The notes below the pieces were generated by a model. That model was not told where the DNA came from, did no database searches, and was given only the letters and a program-made list of their open reading frames with translations. A stretch of 49,757 nt of DNA. Origin: a virus. A program made the position numbers and the translations under genes. The stretch covers positions 1-49,757 of the IMG/VR virus record IMGVR_UViG_3300031616_000010; one strand, 5' to 3'. Shown here piece by piece: positions 33,701 to 48,908 of this stretch (position 1 is its first letter; each line of letters begins with the position of its first letter).

Positions 33701-33989
33701 ACGTGCACGCTTGCACTCCATCTCCGAGATACTGAACAGGCCTAATTGTCTGCATTGGTATCTCGCCAAGCTGAAAGGCATTCAGCTGAACGATGACAAC
33801 CAGCGCGTAGCTAAGGCTAAGCGTGGCCGTGCTCATCAATTGTTACTGCGTCGTGTGTATCAGACTGGTGAGTACTGGTTGCTCACTGATCCATACGAAC
33901 GTTCGCAGGCTGAGTCATACTTCACAATCATGGAGAGTTCAGATGATTTCTGTATTCGTCGATGGGGCGAACCTGTACTCCACGTCTAA
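33681..33989 (+). CDS. Basic hypothetical protein
   Basis: A 102-residue basic, helical protein (MTKRYRERARLHSISEILNR...) with a good GGAGG upstream. It overlaps the small gene before it by 20 bases and the NYN gene after it by 47, so the three are probably coupled. The N-terminal two thirds are rich in Arg, Lys and Leu, compatible with RNA or DNA binding. No family was recognised. Confidence 0.6.
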   Translation: MTKRYRERARLHSISEILNRPNCLHWYLAKLKGIQLNDDNQRVAKAKRGRAHQLLLRRVYQTGEYWLLTDPYERSQAESYFTIMESSDDFCIRRWGEPVLHV

Positions 33990-34476
33990 GGCTCTTGGCC
34001 TTGAGATAGACTTCAAGACTGTGAAGGAGATCTTCGGCAAAGATCTTCTCCGTATCAATTACTATACTGCTATTCTTCCTGACGGACAGTATAGCTCCAT
34101 CAAGCCGATGTTAGACTGGATGGAGTACAACGGGTATACTATCGTCAAGAAGGATGCCAAGGAGTTCTTTGATTCGGCGACGGGGAGACGCAAGGTGAAG
34201 GGGAACATGGACATCGAGATGGCCGTTGATGCCCGTGAAGCTGCCAGTCACTGCAAAGATATCTGGCTATTCACTGGTGATGGTGATTTCACGTATCTGG
34301 TTCAGTCGTTGAAGCGTCTAGGTGCAAAGGTTACGGTTGTATCATCCATCAAGACACAGCCTTCGATGATTGCAGATGAACTCCGTCGTGCATGTGATGT
34401 CTTCATGGAACTCGAAGACTTCCTCGCACTACAACGTCCTATGACTATCGTTAAGGAGAAATCTCGATGGTCATGA
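33943..34476 (+). CDS. NYN-domain (LabA/DUF88-like) putative ribonuclease
   Basis: A 177-residue protein with the PIN-like NYN pattern: VFVDGANLY (D7) at the first strand, KVKGNMDIEMAVDARE (D90, D96) in the centre, LFTGDGDFTYLV (D113, D115) and DELRRACDVFMEL before the C-terminus. These conserved acidic residues form the metal site of NYN RNases. GGAGAG precedes the ATG at 33943; the open frame extends back to 33823, but that part only overlaps the gene before. The tail ends KEKSRWS, similar to the C-terminus of the 534-residue protein. Likely an RNase; target unknown. Confidence 0.85.
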   Translation: MISVFVDGANLYSTSKALGLEIDFKTVKEIFGKDLLRINYYTAILPDGQYSSIKPMLDWMEYNGYTIVKKDAKEFFDSATGRRKVKGNMDIEMAVDAREAASHCKDIWLFTGDGDFTYLVQSLKRLGAKVTVVSSIKTQPSMIADELRRACDVFMELEDFLALQRPMTIVKEKSRWS

Positions 34477-44834: not shown

Positions 44835-45005
44835 ATGGTTTCATATGACGTAGGATTTACAGGTAAGCTCCAGGAGTGGGGTAACGTCGAGCTTGAAGCA
44901 GACAATGCCGAGCAAGCAGAAGAGTTCGCTCACGAACAGATACTCGATCTGTATCCTGAGTACATAGATGTTGAGATCGAGTTCATTAAGGAATTGAAGA
45001 AGTAA
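44835..45005 (+). CDS. Small acidic protein
   Basis: A 56-residue very acidic protein (MVSYDVGFTGKLQEWGNVEL...) with AAAGGA before its ATG. The alternation of a beta start and a long Glu-rich helix resembles small phage proteins placed next to SSB genes. Its stop shares a base with the next ATG (TAATG), so it is coupled to the ssDNA-binding protein. Confidence 0.65.
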   Translation: MVSYDVGFTGKLQEWGNVELEADNAEQAEEFAHEQILDLYPEYIDVEIEFIKELKK

Positions 45006-45514
45006 TGGCTGTGCCAGTTAATGTTAAGAGCAGACCTGAAGAGGCTGTTTATTTAAAAGGAATTTGTAAGTGGGTTAAACACCTACAACCAGACTTCAAG
45101 TTTGAGCTAGATGGCAAATGGAGTATGGTGTTGTATCTAGAAGGAGAAGAGCTTGACAAAGCCAGAGAGCTGCAAGCTACCGGAATTAAAAACACCATCA
45201 AGAAAGACGACGATGGTTGGTATATCACCCTCAGTCGAAAGTGTTCTTTCGACATGCGAGGAAAGAAAGTCGGTCGTGAACCACCTCGTGTCTTCACTGT
45301 CGAAGGTGAGAAAGAAGTTCCCGTTACAGTCATGGTTGGCAACGGTAGTACAGGGACTGCGAAGTGTATCCTCTGGGGTAGCAAGAATTTTCCAGGCAAG
45401 AACCTCAGGTGGGAAGCTTTGAGAATTGATAATTTAGTACCTTACAACCAAGATAGTTATGAAGACGGTGGTGAGAAGACTGCAGATATGAAGTCTATCG
45501 AACCACTATTCTAA
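45005..45514 (+). CDS. Putative single-stranded DNA-binding protein (gp2.5-like)
   Basis: A 169-residue protein between the polymerase and exonuclease genes. The middle is beta-rich with aromatic and basic residues (FKFELDGKWSMVLYLEGEEL, KCILWGSKNFPGKNLRWEAL), consistent with an OB fold. The C-terminus ends in Phe after an acidic stretch (EDGGEKTADMK, then SIEPLF), as in T7 gp2.5-type proteins, where the terminal aromatic residue contacts polymerase. The stop codon itself lies in the first hairpin of the giant non-coding region. Confidence 0.7.
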   Translation: MAVPVNVKSRPEEAVYLKGICKWVKHLQPDFKFELDGKWSMVLYLEGEELDKARELQATGIKNTIKKDDDGWYITLSRKCSFDMRGKKVGREPPRVFTVEGEKEVPVTVMVGNGSTGTAKCILWGSKNFPGKNLRWEALRIDNLVPYNQDSYEDGGEKTADMKSIEPLF

Positions 45515-47680
45515 AGGGGCTGGACTTAAAGCATAACGTATGGATTAGTCAACCATAGGCCCTTAGCAGATCCACATAAGATGTAGCTGAGTGTACACTC
45601 GAAGCTACAGCCTAGATACAGGTTCGGTAGTGGAGTATCCAGCGTGTCTCGCCGCTGCTGCAACGCGAGACTTCAATTCGAACACTGTGGGTGTCATGAA
45701 CTCACAGGGAGTGGCTGAATAAGGCTTAGTCGAGCCTAAAGCACTGCGGGCGTGAAACGCCATCTAGAGTAGGATAACGCAGGTTGGTGGATTATAAAAA
45801 TCAGACGAACCACCATGGAAGGTTGATTACCTTCCCTCCAACACGTATTCAGGACGTGCTAAGGATCCCGTAAGGTGTACCGGCTCTGAAAACACCACAT
45901 ACATGGCCTCCGATCTTTTCATTTGCACATTTGCCAAACCTAATAAGGTAGAAGCTGTGGACAGCGACCGGGCTGAAGCGTAATCGTAGCGCTGACGATC
46001 CTTCAGGAAGATCAATGTGCATAAGCAAGGTCCAAACTTGCTAGGCCCGTCTCCTCGACGGAGGCTAAAACAGAGGCAAGCTCTATTCCTCTACGCGTAA
46101 GCTCAATGCATGTTGCTAGGCAACAACGTAAAAACTGCCGCTGATCCAGGTGCGCCGGTGAGAGTCCGGATATCTACATTGGTGGAGAGGTAAGATACCC
46201 TGGTGATGGAAGCTGAGGCTGGAGCAAGAGCACCGGGTATAGCCCGGATATTCAAATATGAGAGTGTGTAAGGTTGTGCGCTGAGATGTGGACTCGGTGG
46301 GCACTGACCTCCTTAGGAGGAACCTGAAAACCAGAGCGCGAGTCCTTGGCTAGACAGAATGAAATGCCATATATCCTGACGGTGGATGATCGTCAAAGCT
46401 TGTCAAGCAAAGAAACAATCCTCTTGTTGTCGCCATCTCATTGACTGCAGTTCGAGTCTGCTGTAAACCTAGGTAGGTAAGCATTGAGAAAGAAACAAGC
46501 GTCCCAGAAAGCCGAGCAAGTTGAGGTTCGATGCCTCTAGAGCTTGGGTAGCAGATGGCTAGGTAAGTAACGGACGTAGTAGATTGAAGGTAGTTTCGGA
46601 GAGAAGCAGCAGGATATTATAAGATCGTGCTAAGAGCCTAGTATCCTAGAACGGCTCAGAGAGAAATCTCAACCGGGATGGCGCTCTCAGCGCCTAGAAC
46701 CCATCAGAGGCTAACTGCCTCAAGGGCTTTGATGATGGACCGTATACATGAGCCCTGGAATAAGTCCCTAACTCAAGACACGCCTTGAAGCGTTGAGAGG
46801 CTGTTTGCCAGCTGTATAGGTCGGAGGCGATAATACAGCATCCGTACATCGTAAGGAGGCAAACCTGTAGGATGAGTACGTCCATACCCCCGGTGCCGTG
46901 GTGAACGGTGCTTACACTTGAGCGGGTACATCCGGAGAATTGAGCAACCCTCTATGGATAAGGCTAGTAAGCAACGGCCGTCAACCGTAGCGCTTGCATC
47001 GACTGATCGGCATGCCGTGAATGGAGAGTGTAAAATCTCTGAGCCTGAGTGCTCCACGATCAGGGGAAGGAAGTTAGAGCAACCGTGTTGGAGGAACTGG
47101 CAAGGCTTCAGTGCCTAGCAAAGACCAGCCGGTAGAGACAGCGCTCACATCCAACCAAAGCATACCAAGTCTTCAGTCTAACGCGTTCGTAGATGTACGA
47201 CGGTTAGGGACTATCGAAGACGCTGACGACGGTTGGGAATTTCGAAGGTTCCTGTAAACGCCTGGACGGCTCAACTGGTAAGTACATACCAGCTATAGAC
47301 CAAAGTCGGTGACTGACACCCTTATCTTCAACCAGCAGTACGGAGGTGCTCATGAAGAACAACCAGTTTCACTCTTATTCTCAGCCGCCTTAATCTCCGT
47401 TGGGCGGATGACCTCACCGTAGGTGAGTTAGGGTGGTGTAAAATCCACCCTATTAATTCAGTTAGTCTCGCAGCTCGAAAAGGAGCCCCACCTTGTATAG
47501 ACTTGTGCCGGACACAAAACCGGGTAATTCAAGTTGGGAAACCGTGGGAGGTTGCAGGAAGTTCTCTGCCGAGACTATTAATTGATTGAAAGTGCAGATG
47601 AGAAACGGCACTAACCGTACCAGCCGATCGTTGAGCCGCACAAGTGGCGGGGGAGTACGGACTGCACTTTCCTTAAATCC
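45515..47680 (+). ncRNA. Giant structured non-coding RNA candidate, about 2.2 kb
   Basis: No ORF of believable composition occurs on either strand over about 2,170 bases, in a genome where genes otherwise overlap. On the plus strand perfect hairpins follow one another: CTAA(A)GGG/CCCTTAG (45511-45566), TGTAGCT with inner GAGTG/CACTC (45582-45609), GTCTCGC/GCGAGAC (45646-45671), an eight-pair CTGTGGGT/ACTCACAG (45685-45707), GGAAGG/CCTTCC (45817-45835), CCGGG/CCCGG (46233-46247), CCTCC-TTA-GGAGG (46308-46320), GGCGCT-CTC-AGCGCC (46680-46694), GAGGC/GCCTC (46707-46721), GCTGTAT/ATACAGC (46811-46839), CTGGTA/TACCAG (47275-47292), CTCACC-GTA-GGTGAG (47413-47427) and GGGTGG/CCACCC (47431-47450). 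A ten-pair helix GAAAGTGCAG/CTGCACTTTC (47588-47597 with 47662-47671) closes the 3' end. Not a tRNA array or recognisable intron. It resembles the ornate large phage RNAs (GOLLD, ROOL) in kind but is longer, and I cannot match it to them. Confidence 0.75.
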
Positions 47681-47702
47681 TTTCAAAGAAGAGGAGATCT
47701 TC

Positions 47703-47999
47703 ATGTATCCATGGAGCCAACCCCCAACCTCTGGAGTAATATACATCCCGACACCAACTCCAGCACCATCTGCATCAGGTGGATTTGATATTGATGCGAT
47801 TACGCGTCAGATCGCAGGACTCGAAGCTCTGAAGAAGTTGATGAAAGAGGAGAAGAAGGACGACAAGAAGGATGACAAAGATAAGAAGAAAGAACTGTCT
47901 GTCCCTTCTGTTATGCTTCTGATGATCCTGCTCTCGCCCATCACTGGGCCAATCATGTCGAGGTTCTTCCAATGGGGACTCGCAGGCCTACCGCACTAG
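47703..47999 (+). CDS. Small proline-rich membrane protein
   Basis: A 98-residue protein with GAGGAGATC before the ATG, directly after the structured RNA. It has a Pro/Thr/Ser-rich start (IYIPTPTPAPSASGG), a charged helix, a Lys/Asp run (KEEKKDDKKDDKDKKKE) and a C-terminal membrane helix (SVMLLMILLSPITGPIMSRF). The start in the longer open frame at 47586 lies inside the RNA helix and is not used. No family was recognised. Confidence 0.65.
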   Translation: MYPWSQPPTSGVIYIPTPTPAPSASGGFDIDAITRQIAGLEALKKLMKEEKKDDKKDDKDKKKELSVPSVMLLMILLSPITGPIMSRFFQWGLAGLPH

Positions 48000-48124
48000 A
48001 ACCTCAGCCAGTTACGGCTGAGAAGATCCTTTCCACAGAATTTCCAAGATTGAAGAAAATTGAAAACGATCCAGACTTTAATACCGGACGTCAAGACCTT
48101 CCTGTTAACACACGAAGAACTTGA
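47972..48124 (+). CDS. Doubtful 50-residue ORF bridging to the exonuclease
   Basis: An ORF (MGTRRPTALEPQPVTAEKIL...) in another frame that overlaps the end of the membrane protein gene and the first 65 bases of the exonuclease frame. Its composition looks protein-like (FPRLKKIENDPDFNTG) and GAGG stands before its ATG. It fills the gap 48000-48059, which is otherwise empty. If real, the exonuclease would be coupled to it. Kept at low confidence because of the two overlaps. Confidence 0.35.
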   Translation: MGTRRPTALEPQPVTAEKILSTEFPRLKKIENDPDFNTGRQDLPVNTRRT

Positions 48125-48908
48125 AATCCCGATAACCGTCCGCTACGGTGAGCGCAGAGATCCTCCGTCCCTGCGCTTATCGAAGATGGGAGAGATATGT
48201 CCCAGACATTTGTGGTATAGTATTCACCATCCTGAATTAGCTGAGCCTTTACCGGCTGAAGCTATCTTCAAGTTTTCTTTTGGACATACCATCGAAGCTC
48301 AAGCTATCGCATTGGCTAAAGCTGCTGGTCATGAAGTCACGGGAGAGCAAGATGAACTGGTCGTTGATGGTATCAAAGGTCATAGAGATTGCGTACTTGA
48401 TGGCTGCATCGTTGACGTTAAGTCTTGTTCTAGCCGTATGTTTGAGAAGTTTGAAAAGAAATCCATTGCATATGATGATCCTTTTGGCTATCTGGCTCAA
48501 CTGGACGGGTATATGGTGGGATCAATTGACGATCCTCTTGTCCGAACCAAGGATAGAGGATATATCTGGGCCATAGATAAGACATTAGGAAAGATGGTGA
48601 TCTATGAACACAAACTCCGCCATTCGCTTATCCTTGAGAGAATTCGATCTGCTAAATCAATCGTTGCTCTGCCAGTCCAACCCGCTTGTACGTGTGAAGT
48701 GGTCGCCGACGGAAAAAGCGGAAATAGGAAGCTTGGTGCGAAAGCTAGCTATTCAGCGTTCAAGCATTGCTGCTTCCCACACCTCAGAACCTTTCTTTAT
48801 TCTGACGGACCACACTTCCTGACTCATGTAGCGAGGCTGCCCGATGTCCCAGAACTCCAAAGACCGTCTCGACTACACGTTCCTTTATCCTTATCGTCGC
48901 ATTCGTGA
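48060..48908 (+). CDS. PD-(D/E)XK exonuclease
   Basis: A 282-residue nuclease, TTG start at 48060 two codons after an in-frame stop; the ribosome site is weak. It contains LRLSKMGEICPRHLWYSIHH, typical of phage exonucleases related to Cas4/RecB, then FGHTIEAQ (E79), GHRD (D110) and VDVKS (D119, K121), the metal and catalytic residues of the fold. C-terminal CTCE and HCC residues may form a metal cluster, though spacing is not standard. It probably degrades host DNA or processes phage DNA ends in replication and recombination. Confidence 0.85.
   Translation: MKTIQTLIPDVKTFLLTHEELEIPITVRYGERRDPPSLRLSKMGEICPRHLWYSIHHPELAEPLPAEAIFKFSFGHTIEAQAIALAKAAGHEVTGEQDELVVDGIKGHRDCVLDGCIVDVKSCSSRMFEKFEKKSIAYDDPFGYLAQLDGYMVGSIDDPLVRTKDRGYIWAIDKTLGKMVIYEHKLRHSLILERIRSAKSIVALPVQPACTCEVVADGKSGNRKLGAKASYSAFKHCCFPHLRTFLYSDGPHFLTHVARLPDVPELQRPSRLHVPLSLSSHS

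Follow-up and report, generated by a model that had tools for sequence, protein, structure and literature searches.

A plus-strand structured RNA island with a Pro-Pro-stop micro-ORF and a downstream membrane-protein gene in uncultured podovirus-like phages

Results

The interval between the two border genes

The window, by which we mean the whole stretch of 49,757 nucleotides that was analysed, is a viral contig of 49.8 kb. Its terminase shares 54.6% identity with the terminase of Celeribacter phage P12053L and is also close to Cobavirinae terminases such as those of CRP-4 and SIO1. The segment under study, 45515–47680 (hereafter the island), had been delimited correctly in an earlier note, as the preceding gene stops at 45514 and the next real gene begins at 47703 (Table 1). 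A homologue of the preceding gene is found at the same place in most relatives. It has no PHROG or Pfam match, and the name "SSB" that it had been given therefore reflects its position only. Elsewhere in the same phage, an NYN-domain (PIN-like RNase) protein is encoded at 33823–34476 (Pfam PF01936, E 4e-29), a possible candidate for an RNA-processing partner.

Table 1. Features in and around the island, in window coordinates
Feature	Coordinates	Strand	Basis or description
5' border gene ("SSB" of the earlier note)	45005–45514	+	ORF, 169 codons
manA-like RNA domain (RF01745), GGGAGUGGCUGAAUAA core	45687–45844	+	full model 1–192 aligned, 33.4 bits, E 2.6e-6
T-loop hairpin, loop TTCGAGT (46451–46457), imperfect outer helix CTCATTG/CATTGAG	46436–46486	+	sequence
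Conserved domain R1, T-loop hairpin GAGG-TTCGATG-CCTC	46498–46590	+	covariance model, 11 loci
Hairpin with loop UAGUAUCCUAGAAC, loop-E-like AGUA/GAA	46634–46657	+	recurs in relatives
Shine-Dalgarno sequence GGAGGT of the micro-ORF	47342–47347	+	sequence; such sites precede the micro-ORFs of relatives
Micro-ORF MKNNQFHSYSQPP-stop, ending Pro-Pro-stop, 14 codons (stop included)	47352–47393	+	counterparts in relatives
Two stable hairpins 3' of the micro-ORF (47413–47427 and 47430–47451)	47413–47451	+	perfect stems
3' element: ten-pair outer helix, inner CCGUAC/GUACGG, interior strongly conserved	47588–47671	+	two relatives
Small protein, 98 aa, one C-terminal transmembrane segment	47703–47999	+	ATG at 47703
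Cas4-domain exonuclease, 3' border gene	48060–48908	+	phrog_1990, E 4e-25

No ORF of at least 100 aa lies within the island, whose longest stop-free stretch (113 codons) resembles that of shuffled sequences (121 ± 26). The statement of the earlier note that there is no plausible ORF holds for ORFs of this size but not for the conserved micro-ORF of Table 1. Of 167 indels that separate close relatives, only 36 have a length divisible by three, which together with the stop-free length rules out a coding region other than the micro-ORF. Perfect hairpins, defined by a stem of at least 5 pairs and a loop of 3–8, number 20 against 9.6 ± 2.9 in shuffles, and none of 300 shuffles got to 20; the "more than a dozen" reported before was borne out, at twice the chance level. 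The folding energy of the window copy alone is mildly unusual overall (mean z about -1), with a z of -3.0 in its second kilobase, and the strong evidence for structure comes from the relatives. Among these, a folding z below -2 was obtained for 46% of island windows vs 20% of coding windows (shuffle test, five groups), a modest contrast.

Distribution among relatives

Starting from the Cas4 protein and an alignment of it, scans collected about 80 further viral contigs, and the interval between the two border genes could be examined in 75 loci, the window included. The interval is usually 1.5–4.2 kb long and mostly lacks ORFs of 100 codons. A counterpart of the island is present in about 70 related viral contigs, all from uncultured podovirus-like phages, with a structured-RNA block of 1–2.5 kb. 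Leaving out the last 500 bases, 48 of the 75 islands were joined in one blastn network; the DNA similarity is patchy, and the islands share very little sequence identity and differ in their modules. As the relatives share ancestry, the locus counts given below are not independent. In the most distant loci, L091 and L093, the interval shrinks to 0.2–0.7 kb, with neither an island nor the membrane-protein gene. The preceding gene abuts the Cas4 gene directly or nearly in CRP-4, CRP-13, phage T5S1 and Sinorhizobium phage phiM6, and a gap of about 0.4 kb separates the two in SIO1; the island is thus an addition peculiar to this clade of uncultured phages. None of its three parts (RNA, micro-ORF and membrane-protein gene) is present in the cultured relatives (cobaviruses, e.g. 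CRP-4), which carry no Pro-Pro-stop micro-ORF before the Cas4 gene, and a nucleotide search of cultured phages with the island returned no match.

Covariation and T-loop hairpins

To describe the conserved domain R1, a covariance model was built from five phages and searched against 0.97 Mb. It matched eleven loci, every one in an island and on the plus strand, the weakest being L084 (E 1.6). Compensatory change on both sides was seen in 14 of the 18 pairs of the alignment, and 96.3% of its cells are paired, as compared with 74.5% after shuffling and 33–47% after sliding; all measures beat all 500 shuffles, in an alignment that leans towards structure because it was fitted to the model. A model-free test was also applied to six groups of close relatives, in which covarying antiparallel stems of at least 6 pairs were counted against a parallel-strand control. 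This gave 23 vs 1 for spans below 150 nt, 5 vs 0 for 150–500 nt and 4 vs 4 beyond 500 nt. One 7-pair helix, ACGATCT/GGATCGT, has 4 compensatory pairs in five phages; it extends over about 290 columns and, by alignment position, encloses R1 and neighbouring T-arm modules. Covarying helices thus reach about 300 nt and pairing beyond 500 nt is no commoner than in the control, so the single RNA of 2.2 kb that the earlier note had considered is only one possibility, and the island may comprise several RNAs.

Hairpins in which at least 5 pairs close a tRNA T-loop (TTCRANN) occur 92 times on the plus strand of the islands and 4 times on the minus strand, against 2.1 in shuffles, a 44-fold enrichment confined to the plus strand. 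With the covariation, this enrichment identifies the region as a plus-strand structured RNA, as had been proposed; neither stems broken without compensation nor a long protein frame was found among the relatives. The T-loop hairpin at 46436 has a counterpart in L067 with the same arrangement and a different, fully paired outer helix (CCGTTTTG/CAGGACGG). Further downstream, the loop UAGUAUCCUAGAAC recurs on different stems in L078, L043, L085 and L020; loop-E-like hairpins show no overall enrichment, and only the exact AGUAUCCUAGAA loop recurs.

Permuted tRNA-like modules

In 14 loci a short linker, in many cases closed by a hairpin, connects a T-arm to a downstream D-arm like that of tRNA-Leu (GGYGNAAUUGGUANACGC). 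Such modules were found 14 times in islands and once outside, and the minus strand of the loci had none. Sequence upstream of the T-arm pairs with sequence downstream of the D-arm, and the paired bases differ from phage to phage (permutation among loci, p = 5e-5). The module is a circularly permuted tRNA fold in which the opening lies at the anticodon stem and the acceptor end is closed. When an outer helix was sought around every T-arm, a score of at least 20 was reached in 10.6% vs 4.9% of cases, and since this excess is mild we claim the outer helix only for T-arms with a D-arm. A second module, consisting of a hairpin with the loop GUG(C/A)AA or a near variant plus a T-arm, was found 18 times in islands with a few looser matches, and elsewhere not at all on the plus strand and once on the minus strand. 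The window itself contains no recognised permuted module, only T-loop hairpins, R1 and the manA-like domain.

YrlA is a bacterial Y RNA that includes a tRNA-like domain (PMC8394870). Its Rfam model (RF02553) independently matched the permuted-module sites at model positions of about 30–81 (E 5e-6 to 0.2), all below its cut-off (best 29.4 of 69 bits). The modules share with YrlA a T-arm, a short closed acceptor-like stem, a D-arm and the opening at the anticodon position; unlike YrlA, most of the island matches cover the tRNA-like part only, and the Ro60/Rsr (TROVE) gene is absent from 31 of these genomes. An array of tRNA genes was rejected as an explanation, ARAGORN finding none in the window or in 60 loci; the best Rfam tRNA match inside an island reached 27.2 bits vs a cut-off of 29 (L049). 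tRNA genes above the Rfam cut-off do occur in the records behind L024, L026, L027, L041, L049, L052, L074, L075, L078 and L080 and, where mapped, sit outside the island. A tRNA-like stretch of another kind lies around 3200–3300 of L024 (L002:2203–2293), with a perfect seven-pair acceptor stem, a D-arm, a T-arm, an encoded CCA and an anticodon loop of about 25 nt; it is reported by neither ARAGORN nor the Rfam tRNA model. A tmRNA was likewise rejected, there being no Rfam tmRNA match and the micro-ORF having, unlike a resume ORF, its own start codon and ribosome-binding site.

A manA-like domain and a 3' element

At curated thresholds Rfam gave nothing in the window or in 9 loci, and a relaxed search gave a chance-level match in L058. 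When 45400–47800 was compared by cmscan with 4227 families at E of at most 5, manA was the only match, and GOLLD, ROOL, OLE and group I and II introns were not found. The earlier remark that the region could not be mapped to GOLLD or ROOL thus agrees with the covariance models. No Rfam family fits the whole, but the manA-like domain maps the island in part to a known RNA.

This domain contains the conserved manA core GGGAGUGRCUGAAUAA exactly, and a second copy lies at the same place in L011 (4220–4393; 53 bits, E 1.3e-14), both copies scoring below the curated cut-off of 55.2 bits. manA RNAs occur in cyanophages and marine metagenomes (PMC2864571; PMC9964418). Both the window copy and that of L011 retain the GGGAGUG..GAAUAA core and the overall fold; unlike manA, each is a single domain within a larger island, and the phage is not a cyanophage. 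The window copy follows the 45005–45514 gene and lies far upstream of the membrane-protein gene, which is not the context of manA (presumed 5' UTRs of mannose, nucleotide and photosynthesis genes). The manA consensus can itself be read as a tRNA, with 5' GGGaG pairing with 3' CuCCC right after the hairpin in T-arm position, and both copies fit this reading.

The ten-pair helix reported near the 3' end of the segment (47588–47597 with 47662–47671) has kept its pairing despite a completely changed sequence in two other phages: the outer helices of L024:3113–3196 and L036:823–909 are wholly different yet paired. This 3' element was found in only 3 phages. In L036 it is located away from the island, so it probably forms a unit of its own, either a separate RNA or a cis element of the next gene. 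The element is about 80 nt long, occupies different genome places in the three phages and may form a pseudoknot (CGGC/GCCG with CCGUAC/GUACGG).

The Pro-Pro-stop micro-ORF

A micro-ORF of 9–33 codons with a ribosome-binding site and a Pro-Pro-stop end is present in the 3' part of the island in 72 of 75 loci. Of the three exceptions, L063 is positive under another scan rule, the contig of L090 begins inside the interval and L093 has no island; the outgroup loci L094–L099 have no such micro-ORF. Arg or Gln precedes Pro-Pro in 60 of the 72 loci, and TAA serves as the stop codon in 69. CCT encodes the last Pro in 61 of 72, although it accounts for only 39% of the Pro codons in the Cas4 genes. At the first Pro codon CCT and CCA are about equal, and the CCT bias of the last one may reflect decoding or an RNA-level CCUUAA signal. 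The motif was first noticed by eye and then counted; under the other scan rule, the islands had 73 distinct Pro-Pro ends on their plus strand and none on their minus strand, as compared with 9 outside the islands, a strand contrast far beyond what selection by eye could give. As the C-terminal codons vary synonymously in close relatives (QQKPRPP, GQIKQPP, QLGQPP), the peptide is very probably translated. The whole micro-ORF has a pN/pS of 0.65, weakly below 1, so that constraint is clear only at its end. The label "non-coding" in the earlier note is too simple, since this probably translated micro-ORF and a membrane-protein gene are parts of one conserved cassette. In the 75 nt after the micro-ORF, a folding z below -2 was obtained in 56% of loci. 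Pairing of the micro-ORF end, CCNCCUUAA, with the downstream ribosome-binding site was considered and rejected as a general feature, CCA being frequent at the first Pro codon.

The downstream membrane-protein gene

Under a strict rule, the next gene after the micro-ORF encodes a small membrane protein in 64 of 72 loci, at a median gap of 64 nt; in the window the distance is 309 nt, with the 3' element in between. The protein has 70–120 residues in the relatives, with a Lys/Glu-rich middle, one C-terminal membrane segment and often a start rich in Pro, Tyr and Trp, and the window copy has the same Pro/Tyr/Trp-rich start and Lys/Glu-rich middle. The net charge before the membrane segment is positive in 67 of 69 proteins. 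No Pfam or PHROG match was obtained.

Discussion

Comparison of the sequences shows a three-part cassette, namely a structured RNA with T-loop and tRNA-like domains, an (Arg/Gln)-Pro-Pro-stop micro-ORF and a membrane protein, in which the structure, the strand, the micro-ORF with its end conserved at the protein level and the downstream gene recur among relatives. What the earlier note singled out is real and unusual, and its identification as RNA was correct; the note had overlooked both the micro-ORF and the gene for the membrane protein. As a set, the cassette matches no known family or system in Rfam, Pfam, PHROG or the open-access literature, and priority is claimed provisionally.

We tentatively favour a function of this cassette that joins RNA, ribosome and membrane. 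The three parts would be transcribed as one unit, and the tRNA-like domains, acting in cis, would favour the binding or loading of ribosomes; in other systems, translation in vitro rose 2- to 6.3-fold when tRNA-like elements stood in cis ahead of a Shine-Dalgarno site, and the tRNA-like yjdF aptamer/riboswitch bound ribosomes (PMC9142559). The ribosome would then translate the micro-ORF and halt at Pro-Pro-stop, where release is proposed to be slow, a C-terminal Pro-Pro being known to hinder peptide release and to induce tmRNA tagging (PMC3985003). Finally, the membrane protein, which is small, rich in Lys and tail-anchored and would be translated from that transcript too, would bind the RNA and hold it with its parked ribosome at the membrane, with a possible benefit to the phage.

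The last step is modelled on OapA, which is encoded directly downstream of OLE RNA, binds OLE and takes it to the membrane (PMC12265935). Like OLE (about 600 nt, in bacteria), the island is an ornate RNA directly upstream of a membrane-protein gene, and the putative cytoplasmic side of the protein is positively charged as in OapA, so that a pairing of the OLE type is suggested here by gene order and charge. Unlike OLE, the island lies in a phage and not in a Bacillota genome and gives no sequence or covariance match with it; OapA has four predicted membrane helices (PMC12265935) vs one here, and the literature consulted here describes no such micro-ORF for OLE.

The strongest rival is a purely cis-acting, giant regulatory leader, in which the RNA and an arrest micro-ORF would work in the manner of TnaC or SecM and a parked ribosome, coupled to the post-stop hairpin, would set the expression of the membrane protein and of distal replication genes, namely those for the Cas4 exonuclease and an endonuclease. 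The fixed order of micro-ORF, hairpin, ribosome-binding site and membrane-protein gene, with its short median gap, is what such a leader would have. Arrest peptides are known upstream of membrane and secretion genes (SecM, MifM; PMC3985003), the downstream gene there encoding a membrane or translocation-related protein as here, and a cis-regulatory role has been proposed for manA RNAs (PMC2864571). The resemblance to TnaC, SecM and tmRNA-prone C-terminal Pro-Pro lies in a short, probably translated peptide with proline at or near the stop, and its identification as an arrest peptide, which we infer, rests on the Pro-Pro-stop signature; unlike in TnaC and SecM, only (R/Q)PP-stop is conserved, and at the end of a long structured RNA. 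Against a leader, 1–2.5 kb of structured RNA far exceeds any leader's need, most of the RNA is modular and well upstream, and by inspection no alternative pairing of the micro-ORF end with the downstream ribosome-binding site is valid in all groups. We consider this explanation unlikely.

Distinctly unlikely, in our view, is a cluster of independent small RNAs, made as one transcript and then separated by processing, which might act as tRNA decoys for modification enzymes, nucleases or host defences. Module combinations do differ (the manA-like domain only in the window and L011, R1 in 11 loci, YrlA-like modules in 14), the 3' element can stand outside the island, and long-range pairing stays at the control level. 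Independent RNAs would leave unexplained the covarying helix of about 290 nt that encloses several modules in five phages, and all modules share one location and one orientation and run up to the same micro-ORF.

The phage origin, the size and the ornate structure recall GOLLD and ROOL, which form nanocages (PMC12286853), and if one RNA, the island would be longer than GOLLD, ROOL or OLE. An RNA-only cage or multimer of this kind, to which the micro-ORF would be an accessory, is nevertheless highly improbable: no GOLLD, ROOL or OLE model matches at a relaxed threshold, the very low identity between islands and their variable modules are unlike a fixed cage subunit, and the near-universal, probably translated micro-ORF would be left unexplained. 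The island also departs from GOLLD and ROOL in having tRNA-like pieces built in rather than tRNA islands nearby, in its conserved micro-ORF and in being more variable between relatives. Still more improbable is a translation trap, in which bulk translation of the micro-ORF would tie up host ribosomes, tmRNA or prolyl-tRNA in the way of toxic lambda minigenes (which inhibit host protein synthesis, as cited in PMC8012679) and the RNA would only stabilise or present the micro-ORF, for although the near-constant Pro-Pro-stop ends (72 of 75 loci), the strong ribosome-binding sites and C-terminal Pro-Pro as a favourable tmRNA tagging site (PMC3985003) suit it, a trap needs neither 1–2.5 kb of structured RNA nor a membrane protein.

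Taken to its full extent, the favoured reading of the cassette would define a new class of phage ribonucleoprotein, in which an RNA of 1–2.5 kb with tRNA mimics would capture a ribosome through programmed arrest on the micro-ORF that it carries, and a tail-anchored protein encoded alongside would tether it to the membrane, yielding membrane-bound RNA-ribosome particles during replication; we regard this extension as rather doubtful. If the favoured reading is right, a large RNA would serve phages as more than a cage or a regulator: it would be a scaffold on which ribosomes are parked, probably at the membrane, and the permuted tRNA-like modules and the manA-like domain would tie two unexplained RNA classes to translation. 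Through the conserved Pro-Pro-stop micro-ORF, standard ribosome assays can address directly what a large ornate RNA does, a handle that has been missing for GOLLD and ROOL.
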